Assembly: GCA_016839425.1 (NCBI GenBank)
Contig: JAEOUI010000344.1
Location: 1 to 6,131, forward strand
Length of the DNA: 6,131 bases
Direction of reading: 5' to 3'
From: Promethearchaeota archaeon
GTDB taxonomy: Archaea; Asgardarchaeota; Lokiarchaeia; Sigynarchaeales; SOKP01
In this document: in pieces, positions 1 through 6,131 of the stretch
How the letters are laid out: each line of letters begins with the position of its first letter
Position numbering within the stretch: the stretch's first letter is position 1
Made by a program: the position numbers and the translations under genes
The notes under the pieces: model-generated
What the model was told of the DNA's origin: nothing
Seen by the model: only the letters and a program-made list of their open reading frames with translations
The model's database searches: none

Positions 1-95
1 CCTTCTCTGGTGACAACTAGTGCGGTTTTTATTTTTGGGATTAAATCAATCAATTCTTTCAATAACCGATCGAGAGATCCAATCGTAGTTTGCAT
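1..95 (-). CDS. N-terminus of a roadblock/LC7-like protein (partial, runs off left edge)
   Basis: On the minus strand an ATG at 95-93 opens a frame of 31 complete codons that reaches the window edge without a stop. The peptide begins MQTTIGSLDRLLKEL and continues through LIPKIKTALVVTREG. An amphipathic first helix followed by an IPxIxxALVVxxxG strand-and-turn is how roadblock/LC7 domains typically begin (helix 1, strand 1, then a Gly turn). Such domains dimerise and act as scaffolds or regulators of small GTPases, for example bacterial MglB; that role here is inference. The ATG is the first start after an in-frame TAG about 45 nt upstream. No Shine-Dalgarno is visible, and a TATA-like element with a palindrome lies about 45 nt upstream of the start. 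Only about 31 residues are visible, so the full length, any fused domains and the exact family remain unknown. Confidence 0.55.
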   Translation of the reverse strand, partial: MQTTIGSLDRLLKELIDLIPKIKTALVVTRE

Positions 96-137
96 CAAAT
101 TTAAACGAACTCGTGTTGAAAATGTATTCTTTCCCTA

Positions 138-147
138 ATTATAAATT
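138..147 (-). promoter_or_regulatory. Candidate TATA box for the left-edge roadblock-like gene
   Basis: Read on the minus strand the element is ATTTATAATT. It is centred about 47 nt upstream of the ATG at 95, which would place transcription start near 116 and give a leader of roughly 20 nt. It lies inside a perfect inverted repeat, CTAATT at 135-140 and AATTAG at 144-149 with a 3-nt centre, so a regulator bound there could block TBP. In DNA this AT-rich such elements are common by chance, so confidence is low. Confidence 0.3.
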
Positions 148-404
148 AGTCCTTTTCAATTTAAATATTTCTTTTTGATAAAAATTGAGTATATTTTTTT
201 TTTCTTTCTAATGATGTAAAAATATATCATCTTTTAGTAAATATTATAGTGTTAAATATTAAAGTAAAATTTGAAATTTTAGTATCTAAAGCGTAGGTTT
301 AATCGTAATTAATAGAAATTCTTTAAAACAAATATAGTTGTAACAATAAAAATAAATTAAATGAGATGCATTATTATTAATACTAAAAGAAGTGTAAGAA
401 AAAT

Positions 405-459
405 CGCTAGGTTAGCGCTACTTGGTTGGGATTTACTCTATGGGTTATGGTAGCGCAAC
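405..459 (+). promoter_or_regulatory. Structured GC-rich element upstream of the response regulator
   Basis: Four half-sites alternate here: CGCTA 405-409, TAGCG 413-417, CGCTA 416-420 and TAGCG 451-455. The first two form a compact hairpin with 5-bp arms and the loop GGT. The second and third overlap to make the perfect palindrome TAGCGCTA at 413-420. GCGCTAC at 415-421 also pairs perfectly with GTAGCGC at 450-456, and allowing one bulged A (414) the pairing extends by three more pairs to 411-459. The short and long hairpins share bases, so they exclude each other. It lies 21 nt before the response-regulator ATG. It could be a DNA operator, for instance for autoregulation, or an RNA leader element. 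The symmetry is seen directly; the function is inference. Confidence 0.4.
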
Positions 460-480
460 GGCTTAAAATCTCTGATAAAA

Positions 481-867
481 ATGACCGAAACGAAGAAAAA
501 GACGATCCTTATCGTTGACGACGAACCGGACATCGTCAATTTAACGGATAAATTTCTAAGGCTCGGTGGATTTAAAACACTCTCTTGTAGTAATGGTAAA
601 GATGCTTTAAACACGATCGAAACAAATCATGACGAAATTAAACTCGTTTTACTTGATGTGATGATGCCAGGACTTAGCGGGTTTGATATCTTAAAAGAAA
701 TTAAAAGCAATAGCAAGTACGACGATATTTTAGTTGTTTTATTTACGGTGAAAAGCTTCAACGAGGACATTCAAAAAGGAAGGGCATTGGGTGCAAACGG
801 CTATTTGACAAAACCATTCTCTGGAAAAGAGCTTCTGAAATATGTACAGGATAAGATTGGAGTTTAA
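481..867 (+). CDS. Stand-alone response-regulator receiver (REC) protein
   Basis: This is a 128-residue CheY-like protein consisting only of a receiver domain, which takes a phosphoryl group from a histidine kinase and acts through protein contacts. All key residues are present: the acidic pair D13-D14 in ILIVDDEPD, the phospho-acceptor D59 in LLDVMMPG, the switch T89 in VVLFTVK, and K111 in the LTKPF motif. After residue 111 there is only the last helix, so there is no DNA-binding or enzymatic output domain. No kinase lies in the window. The ATG is the only good start, with an in-frame TAG 30 nt upstream, and no Shine-Dalgarno is visible. The first 60 nt are about 45% G+C against about 33% in the next 120. 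A GTPase follows after 91 bp, so it may feed a signal into GTPase control, by analogy with REC-containing RomR in the bacterial MglA system; that link is inference. Confidence 0.93.
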   Translation: MTETKKKTILIVDDEPDIVNLTDKFLRLGGFKTLSCSNGKDALNTIETNHDEIKLVLLDVMMPGLSGFDILKEIKSNSKYDDILVVLFTVKSFNEDIQKGRALGANGYLTKPFSGKELLKYVQDKIGV

Positions 868-958
868 TCTAAATATTTTAATGAAATCATATTTTCACAA
901 ATTATTTTAATTATTCATTATTTTCAAGCTTAAGGGAATTATTCTATAAATGTTTTAA

Positions 959-1969
959 TTGATACAAAATATCTTTTTAATTCAAGGAAATAACCTACAA
1001 GATGTTCGTGGTTTGACTGTTCTGAATTTTCCTCACGAAATTGTTAATAACAATGGTAACCTCATTACGAGCATAATATCTGGTCAAAACCTTAAACTTA
1101 GAACTAATAACCCTTCGAATGCTCCAAAAAATGCGAAACTCCATCAAATAAGTAAACCTGTGCATTTTAATATTGAACAGCATATAATTACTACCGTATC
1201 TATTGATAAAAATATAGTTATTGGAGTTATGCTAGAAGAGTTTGATAATCCTAGCGATTATGATGATTTTTTTCTTGAAATATTACACGAAATAATTAAC
1301 GATAATTCATTTTCTTTTGAAGACGAGCTTGAGAAAGAAAACTTGTTAATTACAATGTTTATTGATTTTAGGAGATTCAGTCAAGAAGTAATTAAAGAAA
1401 CAAAAACAAAGGATATTGAAAAAAAATCTCCAATAGTTAAAGTCTTCTTATTTGGTCTCGAAGAAGCAGGAAAAAGTTCACTCGTTAGGAGGATAAAGAC
1501 GGGAGAATACGAGGATAATTATTTCCAACCAACAAGAAAATTTAACATCGAACACATAGACGATGATGAAATTGGTATAATTGCTTTTTGGGATATGCCC
1601 GGACAGCTCGTTTTTAGGAAAAAATGGCTTTCTGGTGCCCAAGATTCGAACATAATAGTATACATGGTTGATGTTTCCGATCAGATAAAATTTGAAGAAT
1701 CAAAGACTGAACTACATAGAATTATTAATAGACTTGAATTATCTGATGTTCCGATACTTATATTAGGGAATAAAATAGATCTAATAAACCAATTATCTAA
1801 AAATGGAGATGGAGATATTAACGAACATCTAGTACGATTAAAACATGAAATATTTGATATTCTCGAGCTTGAAAAACTTAATGATAGAACAATGGAATTC
1901 TTGTTCACTTCAGTGAAAGATAATTATAATATTGAAGAATTTTACGAGCTTCTTGTTGAACTCTTATAA
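959..1969 (+). CDS. Longin-type domain fused to an Arf-like small GTPase
   Basis: 336 residues in two parts. Residues 1 to about 120 start MIQNIFLIQ, a strand followed by alternating strands and helices as in longin/roadblock-type domains. Residues about 158-336 form a Ras-superfamily G domain. Its motifs are the P-loop GLEEAGKSS (166-174, with K172 and S173), switch-I PT at 191-192, G3 WDMPGQ (211-216, with D212 and the catalytic-type Q216), G4 NKID (271-274) and a G5-like TSVK (317-320). The W-D-x-x-G-Q form and the GLxxAGK P-loop resemble Arf/Sar rather than Ras or Rab. The Arf N-terminal myristoylated helix is replaced by the longin-like domain and a charged linker (about 140-158), so any membrane contact must be made differently. 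The start is TTG at 959, directly after an in-frame TAA (956-958). The first internal ATG would be residue 91 and would destroy the N-domain, so TTG is preferred. GTP binding and hydrolysis is very likely; partners are unknown. Confidence 0.9.
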   Translation: MIQNIFLIQGNNLQDVRGLTVLNFPHEIVNNNGNLITSIISGQNLKLRTNNPSNAPKNAKLHQISKPVHFNIEQHIITTVSIDKNIVIGVMLEEFDNPSDYDDFFLEILHEIINDNSFSFEDELEKENLLITMFIDFRRFSQEVIKETKTKDIEKKSPIVKVFLFGLEEAGKSSLVRRIKTGEYEDNYFQPTRKFNIEHIDDDEIGIIAFWDMPGQLVFRKKWLSGAQDSNIIVYMVDVSDQIKFEESKTELHRIINRLELSDVPILILGNKIDLINQLSKNGDGDINEHLVRLKHEIFDILELEKLNDRTMEFLFTSVKDNYNIEEFYELLVELL

Positions 1970-2077
1970 AAAATCTTAGTTCGTTCAATCCTGCTTTGAT
2001 TATTTTTATCATCTACAATTCATGATCCTAATATCATCTTTACATTCTTGCTTCTAAAAATAAAATTTAATCTAATT

Positions 2078-2089
2078 AAATTTAAATAT
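2078..2089 (+). promoter_or_regulatory. Candidate TATA box for the V4R gene
   Basis: AAATTTAAATAT fits the archaeal TATA consensus. Its centre is about 56 nt before the ATG at 2140, so transcription would start near 2110 and leave a leader of about 30 nt. That leader would contain the small out-of-frame ORF at 2129-2167. The 170-bp gap to the GTPase gene is AT-rich and has no strong terminator, so co-transcription with the GTPase is also possible. Confidence 0.3.
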
Positions 2090-2139
2090 CAAAGCGAACA
2101 ATATCATAACATCAAACAATTAATTATTATGCCTCTAAA

Positions 2140-2736
2140 ATGTTTAAAAGATCAAAAAAAGATATGAGCGTTAACATTGACGATAAAATGGGTCAACTCT
2201 ACTTGGGAAACAAGGATTTACGACTCTTGATGTTGAGGCCCATAGATTTAATCGAGTTTGGGGAGTTCTCCGGAAGCTCTGCTGAAGATATTCTCATTTG
2301 GGTGGGTAAAAGTATGGGGAAGGGGATTTCTGCGAGTTTAATTCCTGAAGTTGCGTGGACAAACGAGACATTATCAACAAAAAAACAAGCCATCATAGGA
2401 ATATTAGATACCCTAGAACAACTTGGTTATGGCGTTTTAGAAGCCGTTTTTAACAAAAATAATATTGAAATATCCGTTAAAGAACCTTTATCTGTACCAG
2501 AAAAGGAAAATATCATGGCTAAAAATATATGCCGAATCTATCAAGGACTTTTTCACGGAATGTTTGAAAATATGCAAGTTGATGTGGATAGCGAAGAAAT
2601 TAAATGTTTCTTGTTAGGTCAAGATGAATGCGTTTTCAAATATACTCTTGTCAGCGAAGAATTCGATGACAACGATATAGATGTTGGAAGTGGTTCTAAA
2701 GAAAGAGATATTGACTCCCTTCTCAAATCTATTTAA
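2140..2736 (+). CDS. V4R-domain protein (TRAPP/Bet3-related fold family)
   Basis: 198 residues. From about 28 to 172 the pattern fits V4R (4-vinyl reductase) domains: LRPIDLIEFGEFSG, then VGKSMGKGI, a helix leading to the typical LGYGVLE (95-101), ICRIYQGLFHGMF (130-142), and the family-typical ending E-x2-C-x3-G-x3-C-x-F (E153, C156, G160, C164, F166). V4R domains are small-molecule or metal sensor modules. They share a fold with Bet3-type TRAPP subunits, which help activate Rab GTPases in eukaryotes. The last 25 residues are acidic and Gly/Ser-rich, probably a flexible tail. There is no membrane segment or DNA-binding domain. Lying 170 bp behind an Arf-like GTPase, it could be a sensor or exchange-factor-like partner of it (inference). 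ATG 2140 is used here, but the ATG at 2164 (residue 9) is an equally plausible start because the first eight residues are a lysine-rich stretch outside the domain. No Shine-Dalgarno precedes either. Confidence 0.82.
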   Translation: MFKRSKKDMSVNIDDKMGQLYLGNKDLRLLMLRPIDLIEFGEFSGSSAEDILIWVGKSMGKGISASLIPEVAWTNETLSTKKQAIIGILDTLEQLGYGVLEAVFNKNNIEISVKEPLSVPEKENIMAKNICRIYQGLFHGMFENMQVDVDSEEIKCFLLGQDECVFKYTLVSEEFDDNDIDVGSGSKERDIDSLLKSI

Positions 2737-2857: not shown

Positions 2858-2882
2858 AGTGTGAAACTTCACACTTTTTTTT
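2858..2882 (+). terminator. Hairpin plus T8 intrinsic-like terminator
   Basis: AGTGTGAA (2858-2865) and TTCACACT (2868-2875) form a perfect 8-bp stem around a 2-nt centre, followed at once by a T8 run (2875-2882). This is the layout of a bacterial-type intrinsic terminator. It lies about 120 bp after the V4R stop and upstream of the cdhA TATA-like box, so it most likely ends the V4R transcript. Archaea usually terminate on T-tracts alone, so the hairpin may instead protect the 3' end. Confidence 0.6.
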
Positions 2883-3027: not shown

Positions 3028-5376
3028 ATGTCTAAAGAAGGCGCAAAAATTAAAATCGACTCGTACAAGGGCGCTTTCGGCACGATCAAGGGTTTTGAGT
3101 TCACTACGGGAAAGATCGTGAGCGAAGGCGATGCGACCGAGTGGGAACCAATGGGCCCTCATCCAAAACCTCATATTCCAACTCTTCGAAATTGGTTCAT
3201 GAGATTAATGGAAAGATACAAACCTTTTTACATGCCAATCTGCGACATGTGTTGTCTCTGTACATATGGCAAGTGTAACCTTTCAAAAGGAAGAACTGGC
3301 GCTTGCGGTATAAACATGGAAACGCAACAAGCTCGTATCGTTGAAATTGCTTGTTGTATTGGTGCTGCCTGTCATAGTGCACACGGCGATCATTTATTAC
3401 ATTGGCTAAAAGAGAAGTATGGTAATGTTCCTATTAATTTTGGTTCAAATATAGCAGTGGAAATGCCACACACTCGATTGGTTGTTGGAATGAAGCCTGA
3501 AACCTTAGAAGATCTAGAAACTGCCATGGAATGGGTTCATTATACAATAACGCATCTACTTGCTTCGGGGCACACCGGGCAAGAGTCAAGTTATTTAGAT
3601 TACGAATCAAAAAGCTTTCTAGCAGGTTTAGCCGATTCTGTTGGTATGGAAATATCTGATGCGGTTCAAATGGCAGCATATGGCTTTCCAATTGGCGATC
3701 CAAATGTTCCTATAGTAGAATTAGGAATGGGCACGATGGACACTAATAAAGCTACTATCTTGATGATTGGACACAATGTCGCTCCTGGAGTAGAATTAGT
3801 AGATTATATGAGGGAAAAAGGATACGAAAATAAGATAGATGTTGGAGCAATCTGTTGTACTGCCCATGATTTAACTCGTTATTACGATGGTGCTAAAATA
3901 GTAGGATCAATGTCAAGACAATTACACTTCATCCGATCAGGATTAGCAGATGTCGTGATGGTTGATGAACAATGTGTCAACCTCAGGTCCTTCGAACAAG
4001 CCCAATTAGTGAATGCTCCCTTTATAGCTACGAATGAGAAAAATATGGGTGGACTTCCAGACAGGACAAACGATCCCATAAACGAAATTGTTAATGATTT
4101 AGTCAGTGGTAAAATGCCTGGGGTGTTAATCTTAGATCCTATTAAAGCGGGGGCAATAGCTGCTGAGACCGCAATTAAAGTGAAACCCATAAGAAAGTCC
4201 AAAAGTGGAGTTCCCGATGAAAAGGGATGCATTGATATGGCAATGAATTGTAATGGATGTGGGAATTGCCAACGAAATTGTCCTAATGATTTACCTTTAA
4301 CGGAGGGTGTCAATTTAGCTAAATCGGGAGACTTTTCCTTATTAGCAAGCGTTTTTGACGACTGTTTGGGTTGTGGACGATGTGAATCCGATTGTATGAA
4401 AGATGTATCTCCTTTGACGCTATTAATGCACGCTGGCAGAGAACAAATTCGAAACGAAAAATACAACTGCCGAGCAGGTAGGGGTCCAATTCAAGATACT
4501 GAAATCCGAAATGTTGGAGCACCAATAGTACTTGGAGAAATACCTGGAATTGTAGCAATTATCGGATGTGCAGATTACGCTCATAGCATAAAAGAACTAT
4601 ATCAGATGGCGGAGGAATTCCTAAATAGAAAATACATTGTTGTAGTTTCTGGTTGTGGTGCTATGGATATTGGATTGGTAAAGGACGAAGAGGGAAAAAC
4701 CCTTTACGATAGATTCCCTGGAGATTTTGATAGAGGTGGATTAGTAAATGTTGGCTCTTGTGTTTCAAATCCTCACATTACAGGTGCTGCTTGCAAAGTA
4801 GCAAATATCTTTGCCCGAAGACCTCTCAGGGGAAATTTCGAAGAAATAGCTGACTATATCCTCAATCGAGTTGGAGCTGTTGGAGTTGCATGGGGTGCAA
4901 TGTCTCAGAAAGCCGCAAGTATCGCTAGTATGGCAAATGGTCTAGGCATTCCTGCCGTTGTCGGTCCACACGCAGCAGAATACCGAAGGGCTTATGTCGG
5001 ACGTTCTGATAAAACGGACGAATGGACAGTTTTTAACGCAAGGGACGGTTCTAGTGGTCATGTTGTCGGACCTGGTCCGGAACACCTTTTAACTACAGCC
5101 GAATCCATCGAACAAGCAATTTGCTTGGTAGCAAAACTAGCTTTAAGACCAGCTGACAACTCCAAGGGAAGAATGATAAAATTATCTCATTGGATTGATT
5201 TGGAAAGGAAGTATAAGGGTGTCGAATTCCCAGAGGATCTAGATAAATTCATTCGGTTAGAAGCTGACATTCCCATCTCAATGAAAGATGGTATTATGGC
5301 TTACTTGAAAGAAAAAGGTTGGAAGCCTAAGGAAATAGTTGATCCCACCTTACTTGAAAGGATGTGTCGTAGTTAA
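3028..5376 (+). CDS. cdhA: CO dehydrogenase alpha subunit of archaeal CODH/acetyl-CoA synthase
   Basis: 782 residues, near the usual length of about 800. The protein interconverts CO2 and CO in the CODH/acetyl-CoA synthase complex of the Wood-Ljungdahl pathway and is cytoplasmic. An N-terminal motif CxxCCxCx4Cx9C (C72, C75, C76, C78, C83, C93) would bind the electron-relay Fe-S clusters. An inserted ferredoxin region carries two CxxCxxCx3C motifs (C408-C418 and C446-C456), characteristic of archaeal CdhA and absent from bacterial CooS. Likely NiFeS C-cluster ligands, inferred by comparison with CooS, are H249 (GHN), C277 (ICCTAHD), C316, C514, C543 (SGCGAMD) and C578 (GSCVSNPH). None is missing, so the enzyme should be active. 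The start follows a TATA-like box, and the first 130 nt are unusually GC-rich. A T11 tract follows the stop. The normal neighbour cdhB (epsilon subunit) is not adjacent and no cdhC/D/E is seen. Confidence 0.95.
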   Translation: MSKEGAKIKIDSYKGAFGTIKGFEFTTGKIVSEGDATEWEPMGPHPKPHIPTLRNWFMRLMERYKPFYMPICDMCCLCTYGKCNLSKGRTGACGINMETQQARIVEIACCIGAACHSAHGDHLLHWLKEKYGNVPINFGSNIAVEMPHTRLVVGMKPETLEDLETAMEWVHYTITHLLASGHTGQESSYLDYESKSFLAGLADSVGMEISDAVQMAAYGFPIGDPNVPIVELGMGTMDTNKATILMIGHNVAPGVELVDYMREKGYENKIDVGAICCTAHDLTRYYDGAKIVGSMSRQLHFIRSGLADVVMVDEQCVNLRSFEQAQLVNAPFIATNEKNMGGLPDRTNDPINEIVNDLVSGKMPGVLILDPIKAGAIAAETAIKVKPIRKSKSGVPDEKGCIDMAMNCNGCGNCQRNCPNDLPLTEGVNLAKSGDFSLLASVFDDCLGCGRCESDCMKDVSPLTLLMHAGREQIRNEKYNCRAGRGPIQDTEIRNVGAPIVLGEIPGIVAIIGCADYAHSIKELYQMAEEFLNRKYIVVVSGCGAMDIGLVKDEEGKTLYDRFPGDFDRGGLVNVGSCVSNPHITGAACKVANIFARRPLRGNFEEIADYILNRVGAVGVAWGAMSQKAASIASMANGLGIPAVVGPHAAEYRRAYVGRSDKTDEWTVFNARDGSSGHVVGPGPEHLLTTAESIEQAICLVAKLALRPADNSKGRMIKLSHWIDLERKYKGVEFPEDLDKFIRLEADIPISMKDGIMAYLKEKGWKPKEIVDPTLLERMCRS

Positions 5377-5693: not shown

Positions 5694-6113
5694 TTATAAA
5701 AACATATTTATCAATGGTAATAATTGTTCTTTAAAGTATTCGAGCTTTTCGTGAACGAGTTCGATATTGTTAGTAAGAATCCATAAAAATACTGGAATCT
5801 GAAGGTCAGAATATTCAAATAATTTTTCTCCACTTATTGAAAATGCATTTAAAGGAAAATCTAGTAAGATTGATTTTTCTCTTATGAGCCCTATCGATGT
5901 GTGGAAATTGGAAAGAGTCTGGAGCAATAATGCCGTGTTGTTTATTAACATTTCATTCGTACTACTTTTAGTGTAATTACCGAAAATTAACCCGTCCATT
6001 GAAATCAAGCTTGCCGCTTTTGCATCTATCGTTCTCGTGAAATCCTCAAGAATATTTTCGACAATTTCAGAAGTTTCTGAAATCTTTTTGAGTGCTATGC
6101 TGAACATTTGCAT
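5694..6113 (-). CDS. Roadblock/LC7-like domain protein (start may lie beyond the edge)
   Basis: 139 residues from the ATG at 6113. The order of elements fits a roadblock/LC7 domain: helix 1 (IVENILEDFTRTI, 17-29), strand and turn AKAASLISMDGLIFG (31-45), helix 2 (NEMLINNTALLLQTLSNF, 53-70), a strand region (SILLDFPLNAFSI, about 81-93), EKLFEYSDL, a hydrophobic strand (IPVFLWILTN, 106-115), and a final helix (118-136). These small domains dimerise and bind or regulate small GTPases, for example MglB or the Ragulator subunits. A longin-type assignment is a close alternative because the folds are related. The frame stays open for six more codons to the window edge, so the true start could be upstream; ATG at 6107 (residue 3) is also possible. 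It converges on the 71-residue ORF with 7 bp between stop codons. A role with the longin-Arf GTPase nearby is inference. Confidence 0.72.
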   Translation of the reverse strand: MQMFSIALKKISETSEIVENILEDFTRTIDAKAASLISMDGLIFGNYTKSSTNEMLINNTALLLQTLSNFHTSIGLIREKSILLDFPLNAFSISGEKLFEYSDLQIPVFLWILTNNIELVHEKLEYFKEQLLPLINMFL

Positions 6114-6131
6114 TATTGACTCTTTTTGGAA

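Follow-up and report, generated by a model that had tools for sequence, protein, structure and literature searches.

We find that the 6,131-nucleotide Promethearchaeota contig JAEOUI010000344.1 (hereafter the window, meaning this whole stretch), which is of Lokiarchaeota type, carries two adjacent genes that have stayed together through a clade of Asgard genomes: one encodes an Arf-like GTPase with an N-terminal longin-type domain and the other a protein of the V4R/TRAPPC3 fold with a zinc-type site. In our reading the locus is a two-gene signalling unit composed of these two proteins and maintained throughout the clade, a proposition for and against which we see the case as evenly balanced; since the genes stayed side by side, the GTPase and the V4R protein probably work together. 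Both genes are intact and lie on one strand, the sequence motifs of the GTPase are complete and the zinc-ligand residues of the V4R protein are almost invariant. The features in question are the following.

959..1969, forward strand: longin-Arf-like GTPase of 336 residues, TTG start
1454..1477, forward strand: P-loop of the GTPase, GLEEAGKS
2140..2736, forward strand: V4R/TRAPPC3-fold protein of 198 residues, the partner gene of the GTPase
2530..2631, forward strand: predicted zinc site in the V4R protein, formed by C131 (2530-2532), E153 (2596-2598), C156 (2605-2607) and C164 (2629-2631)

Homologs were sought in 227 genomes of the phylum, with cutoffs of E <= 1e-8 for V4R, E <= 1e-30 for the GTPase and E <= 1e-60 for cdhA, the large gene downstream of the pair, which yielded matches in 62, 61 and 109 genomes, respectively. 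We fetched 69 regions, called their genes with a simple longest-open-reading-frame script and regarded GTPase matches of at least 170 bits as orthologs. This gave 56 loci, including the window and its nearest match, a contig from a Lokiarchaeota metagenome-assembled genome with identical gene order (L001, carried by genome G001). When unnamed open reading frames below 100 residues are skipped, V4R is the next gene downstream of the GTPase on the same strand in 54 of the 56 loci, with a gap of 89-178 bp; in the remaining two (G104 and G117) both genes are kept and V4R lies on a separate contig. The clade, as we use the term, comprises 65 genomes (G001 and G094-G157) picked by listing order and matches, not by taxonomy. 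Both genes are found in 55 of these, the GTPase alone in none, V4R alone in two (G100 and G115, with V4R at the end of the contig) and neither in eight; both orthologs are therefore present in 55 of the 227 genomes, as counted within the clade, and not in every Asgard genome. Named database proteins of both families come mostly from Promethearchaeota or Lokiarchaeota, and some from Hodarchaeota, Thorarchaeota, Heimdallarchaeota and others.

In a synteny control that took the genes around L059 (G122, one 3.34-Mb contig) as reference, V4R and the GTPase were adjacent in 53/53 scorable regions, the GTPase and U470 (a gene for a protein of ~470 residues) in 47/54, and U470 and DH341 in 27/47. The GTPase-V4R combination is the best kept of all pairs scorable in at least 20 regions, despite insertions on either side, and no scored gene ever splits it when both members are in the region. 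A sequence-only reading of the window had proposed a four-part GTPase module (receiver, longin-Arf GTPase, V4R and roadblock), to be checked by comparing gene order across Asgard genomes, and the GTPase-V4R half of that module is conserved in just this sense. A tree of the GTPases was dropped as support for the pairing: the label 'V4R-linked' denoted similarity (170 bits) rather than adjacency, so that the separation of all 56 labelled entries from the rest by a branch (99/96, flagged for long branches) arose partly by construction, and L046 and L078 bore the label though their V4R gene lies elsewhere. Dropping the tree left our weighing of the readings unchanged.

Structures were predicted for both proteins. 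The GTPase consists of a longin-type domain (residues ~1-144) and a G domain (~157-336). Its motif set is complete, with GLEEAGKS, WDMPGQ (211-216), NKxD (271-274) and SVK (318-320), and all Arf-family motifs (P-loop GxxxxGK[ST], switch I Thr, DxxGQ and NKxD) are present; the key residues of the P-loop, switch I (PT), DxPGQ, NKxD and SVK are kept in 119-120 of the best 120 of 424 homologs, the window protein included. Arf proper has GGQ in G3 and an N-terminal amphipathic helix with a myristoylatable Gly2. Neither is found here: G3 reads DMPGQ, the Pro being present in 120/120 of the same best homologs, and the protein starts with MIQN within the longin-type domain, for which reasons we call it Arf-like and not Arf proper. 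The b-b-a-b-b-b-a-a topology of longins is seen in the model, where mean pLDDT (predicted local distance difference test) values per block are 71-89 across residues 1-140, except for 41-60; the hits of the fold search spanned residues 153-336.

In the case of the V4R protein, the sequence profile of the family scores 26.6 bits (E 6.2e-6), under its cut-off of 31, and PF02830 is listed among the precomputed domains. The model has the V4R/TRAPP fold and the alignment the three-Cys/one-Glu set of zinc-ligand residues: C131, E153 and C156 are kept in 120/120 and C164 in 118/120 of the best 120 of 251 homologs, with a Cys spacing that resembles C151/C177/C185 of DmpR. Comparison of folds gave Z-scores of up to 12.7 for MopR/PoxR (tied with TRAPP), 12.3 for TPC6B, 11.7 for Thor-TRAPPC3 and 11.6 for BcsD, and Foldseek placed a TRAPPC3 (6aq3) first (E 7.9e-6) and PoxR third (1.1e-5). 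A search of the sequences of solved structures with the V4R alignment produced weak matches only, the best related one (7yh3, E 0.39) coming after an unrelated ribosomal protein (0.24). Fold and zinc-ligand residues together fit V4R/TRAPPC3.

The nearest V4R homologs outside the clade, in five genomes, form tandems, each with another gene of V4R type. Beside the tandem, G087 and G093 carry a roadblock protein and an Arf/Ras-type GTPase that we read from its sequence as MglA-like (Pfam assigning Arf/Ras); a GTPase of this kind lies two genes past the tandem in G091, and a roadblock-Ras fusion adjoins it in G162. Proximity of V4R to a small GTPase thus recurs, with different GTPase types, in four of the five distant genomes, a small sample, and a roadblock domain is also found near the tandem in three of these four. 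The tandem genes (L100-L104) encode ~160-175 residues each; the second one is weakly DUF2507-like (E 1e-4 to 4e-4) in the two that were scanned, and in L102 the tandem adjoins a gene for ribosomal protein L3 (8e-85).

The remaining features of the window are these.

1..95, reverse strand: start of a roadblock/LC7 gene, its first 31 codons by translation; the gene runs off the left edge
481..867, forward strand: stand-alone receiver (REC) of 128 residues, Response_reg 1.6e-25 (Pfam scan)
2859..2874, no strand: 16-bp palindrome GTGTGAAACTTCACAC (GTGTGAA-NN-TTCACAC) between V4R and cdhA, 169 bp upstream of cdhA
3028..5376, forward strand: cdhA, CO dehydrogenase/acetyl-CoA synthase (CODH/ACS) complex subunit alpha, TIGR00314, 1068 bits
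5471..5686, forward strand: 71-residue protein, PF26551 in precomputed domains, recurrent at the locus
5694..6131, reverse strand: C-terminal 145 residues of a Rag/Arf-like GTPase, open to the edge, the gene continuing beyond the window

The gene cdhA, which had gone unmentioned in the sequence-only reading, is preceded by the palindrome well beyond this contig. In 71 sequences (the 69 fetched regions, the window and L001; 1.08 Mb), the exact core occurs 24 times, with 1.2 matches expected from mononucleotide shuffles, and 22 of the 24 fall 135-189 bp before a cdhA start; allowing three mismatches it is found in 29 of 42 cdhA upstream regions, and 0/100 shuffles did as well. Seven of the 42 have no good match in the upstream region as called. 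For three of these (L048, L053 and L055) an exact match does exist, so that the cdhA start was probably miscalled there. Among 20 relocated, paralogous, inverted or outgroup copies of cdhA, that of G136 alone is preceded by the exact core; of the other 19, those of G153, G155 and G156 have it upstream with 1-2 mismatches. The palindrome is probably a cdhA operator, the target of a putative regulator. Given this palindrome, a TATA-like signal of its own and a looser linkage to V4R, cdhA is probably a separately regulated neighbour of the pair. G001 contains a second cdhA copy (C158:12010-14352) that is 84% identical to that of the window, and the exact palindrome was not found in the upstream stretch read for it. 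In G122 (contig C1, 3.34 Mb) cdhA is present and CdhC unmatched at E <= 1e-20, which, if the genome is complete, implies a CODH alpha subunit without the usual ACS beta subunit.

The frequent company of cdhA raises the question whether the pair serves as accessory genes to CODH/ACS, with V4R as a sensor (of redox state, metal or CO) and the GTPase as a factor that helps to assemble, activate or place the complex. Downstream of V4R and in the same orientation, cdhA or a fragment of it comes next in 31 of 54 loci, 27 of them with a nearly full-length copy (>900 bits); it adjoins V4R in 30 of the 38 scorable regions of the synteny control, being non-adjacent in the other 8, and 55 of the 56 clade genomes that bear cdhA hold the GTPase and/or V4R. 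Nevertheless, seven loci (L067, L073, L076, L083, L085, L087 and L092) keep the GTPase, V4R and the 71-residue gene together with no complete cdhA alongside, full-length cdhA residing on another contig, and G108 has cdhA and neither gene of the pair. Of the 53 genomes with cdhA that lie outside the clade, moreover, not one showed the pair at the search thresholds used, and cdhA seemingly has its own operator and TATA-like signal; we judge this explanation rather unlikely, and a functional tie of the pair to carbon metabolism is put forward as a hypothesis. Co-loss was set aside as functional proof: nine of the 65 clade genomes are without cdhA and seven of these without both genes of the pair, and as five of the seven (G101, G121, G138, G149 and G157) have cdhC, the co-loss perhaps reflects missing contigs.

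A plainer alternative is that V4R and the GTPase act separately and are unrelated neighbours in a region where gene order changes slowly. Several other combinations, among them a vWA gene with the fusion GTPase gene (31/32) and 379aa-N293 (23/24), are nearly as well kept, and there are separate promoter-like signals. Yet the GTPase-V4R pair outlasts insertions on its flanks, both genes are retained where they have become unlinked, and the nearness of V4R to small GTPases of other types recurs at a distance; we regard coincidental neighbourhood as unlikely. The two-gene signalling unit itself has several observations to contend with. Gene order is fairly stable over the whole block, which weakens the adjacency argument, and the control regions were fetched around the pair, where the two split genomes could not be counted; adjacency alone is therefore no proof of function. 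V4R may well be transcribed from a promoter of its own, judging by the gap of 89-178 bp that separates it from the GTPase and by a TATA-like signal 81-90 bp upstream of it (11 matches in 48 upstream regions, 1.7 expected); such signals peak ~70-90 bp before V4R, cdhA and U470. In the eight clade genomes with neither gene, loss and missing contigs look alike. To these points are added that the fetched regions of six more distant GTPase homologs contain no V4R, that G159 has no GTPase close to its V4R tandem, and that the V4R model is moderate (pLDDT 73).

The reading that had started from sequence alone envisaged a GTPase switch under receiver control, with V4R and roadblock proteins as partners, along the lines of MglA/MglB/RomR. 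It was right that receiver, longin-type Arf-like GTPase and V4R genes lie together, and all four gene types are found in the window and in L001, among them the small GTPase, roadblock and receiver types of the MglA-MglB-RomR system; the left-edge roadblock is represented by a truncated gene start only. Unlike in that system, however, the links are not conserved, and a polarity switch of this kind is not indicated. The receiver lies directly upstream of the GTPase in 2/56 loci, namely the window and L001. Elsewhere it has a neighbourhood of its own: REC-like matches occur in 94 of the 227 genomes (E <= 1e-20), two gene families flank it in 16 of the 18 REC regions read (in L111 a methyltransferase, 9.8e-15, and a radical-SAM protein, 1.3e-13), and these 18 regions hold zero matches to the GTPase or V4R of the window. 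By eye, the best REC match was on another contig or >60 kb from the GTPase in every co-listed genome except G001. The receiver-GTPase link thus fails the test of conservation, and receiver input is ruled out as a conserved feature. No histidine kinase is present among the scanned window proteins, and PADLOC, run on six of them, returned a single, weak match, of the receiver to the model PD-T4-6. The left-edge roadblock gene, whose homolog in L001 matches Robl_LC7 (6.6e-10), is divergent and lineage-specific in position: in a search of 35 of the 65 clade genomes, it was not at the locus in 34 others, the best matches lying elsewhere at 31-42% identity. A receiver-controlled module is therefore very improbable; the receiver is probably a chance neighbour, and the best explanation is that both it and the left-edge roadblock gene joined the locus recently, within a sub-lineage, and are not components.

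The sub-lineage of the window and L001 has been rearranged, since U470, directly upstream of the GTPase in 51/56 loci and outside the window, lies on a different contig in G001. U470 is coiled towards its N terminus, contains acidic repeats and ends in a zinc-ribbon-like tail (e.g. L042 258-1688); no Pfam family scores above cut-off. The 71-residue protein has PF26551 listed for all eight of its matches, the window copy included, while the Pfam scan gave no family at E <= 1; the copies seen conserve a HWAxHNDSHxxxF stretch, and in 29 of 37 scorable regions the gene is adjacent to that of the fusion GTPase. What had been taken for a second roadblock gene (5694-6113) is the tail of the right-edge GTPase gene, as its L001 homolog is complete and a Rag/Arf-like GTPase of 402 residues (Gtr1_RagA 4.4e-24), residues 95-389 of which match the solved GTP-binding protein 8yl2. 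Its C-terminal part gave no Robl_LC7 match; the right-edge GTPase probably ends in a roadblock-type domain. The vWA protein that adjoins the fusion GTPase (L064 15425-16618 and relatives) has a RING-like tail and also matches, more weakly, Ssl1 and Tfb4 of TFIIH.

As for how the GTPase and the V4R protein might cooperate, V4R could be a ligand- or redox-sensing partner or scaffold of the longin-Arf switch, drawn from the TRAPP toolkit. The longin domain would provide an in-cis platform for dimerisation or regulation of the GTPase, and a V4R homodimer may bind to its longin side, much as longins in TRAPP have Bet3-fold subunits at their sides. Nucleotide exchange might then be set by a small ligand of hydrophobic or redox type in the pocket of V4R, with an output that could run via the U470 protein and perhaps reach CODH/ACS.

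The eukaryotic TRAPP core combines Bet3/TRAPPC3-C5-C6 with the longins Bet5/Trs23. Here, in contrast, GTPase and longin form one fused protein, the GTPase is Arf-like and not Rab, one V4R gene replaces several Bet3-fold subunits, and the pair is not known to have GEF activity. Closest in parts are Thor-TRAPPC3 (PDB 7YH2/7YH3) and the longin-GTPases of MK-D1 (Tran et al. 2024, PMC10933270), which share the folds, the zinc site and the GTPase-longin fusion; that study describes Asgard TRAPPC3 proteins as zinc-binding homodimers with cavities and notes that the genome layout of MK-D1 makes it difficult to match regulators to GTPases. In the present case, one longin-GTPase gene and one V4R gene stand side by side clade-wide, and the pair is an exception to that difficulty at the scale of one clade. 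The V4R sensors MopR, PoxR and DmpR, which include the highest Z-score and have the same three-Cys/one-Glu type of zinc site (PMC7264223 and PMC10715001), differ in that no AAA+ or DNA-binding domain was detected in the window protein. The GTPase-V4R-cdhA arrangement was not found in the literature at the level of titles and abstract openings, a scope mostly outside subscription papers.

Small GTPases number in the dozens in Asgard archaea, relatives of the ancestors of complex cells, which also encode many proteins of the longin, roadblock and TRAPP-fold types. The clade-wide, almost unbroken GTPase-V4R pair names one candidate set of GTPase and regulator partners among them. If the two proteins do work together, they would provide direct evidence for a pre-eukaryotic link between Bet3-fold proteins and small GTPases. 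Also conceivable, if decidedly doubtful, is a TRAPP-like switch reduced to these two proteins and gated by a ligand, through which an Arf-type GTPase would respond to the state of the CODH/ACS carbon pathway; in that event, sensing of a metabolite and activation of the GTPase would have been combined in one machine of two proteins at a time when TRAPP had not yet become specialised for membrane traffic.

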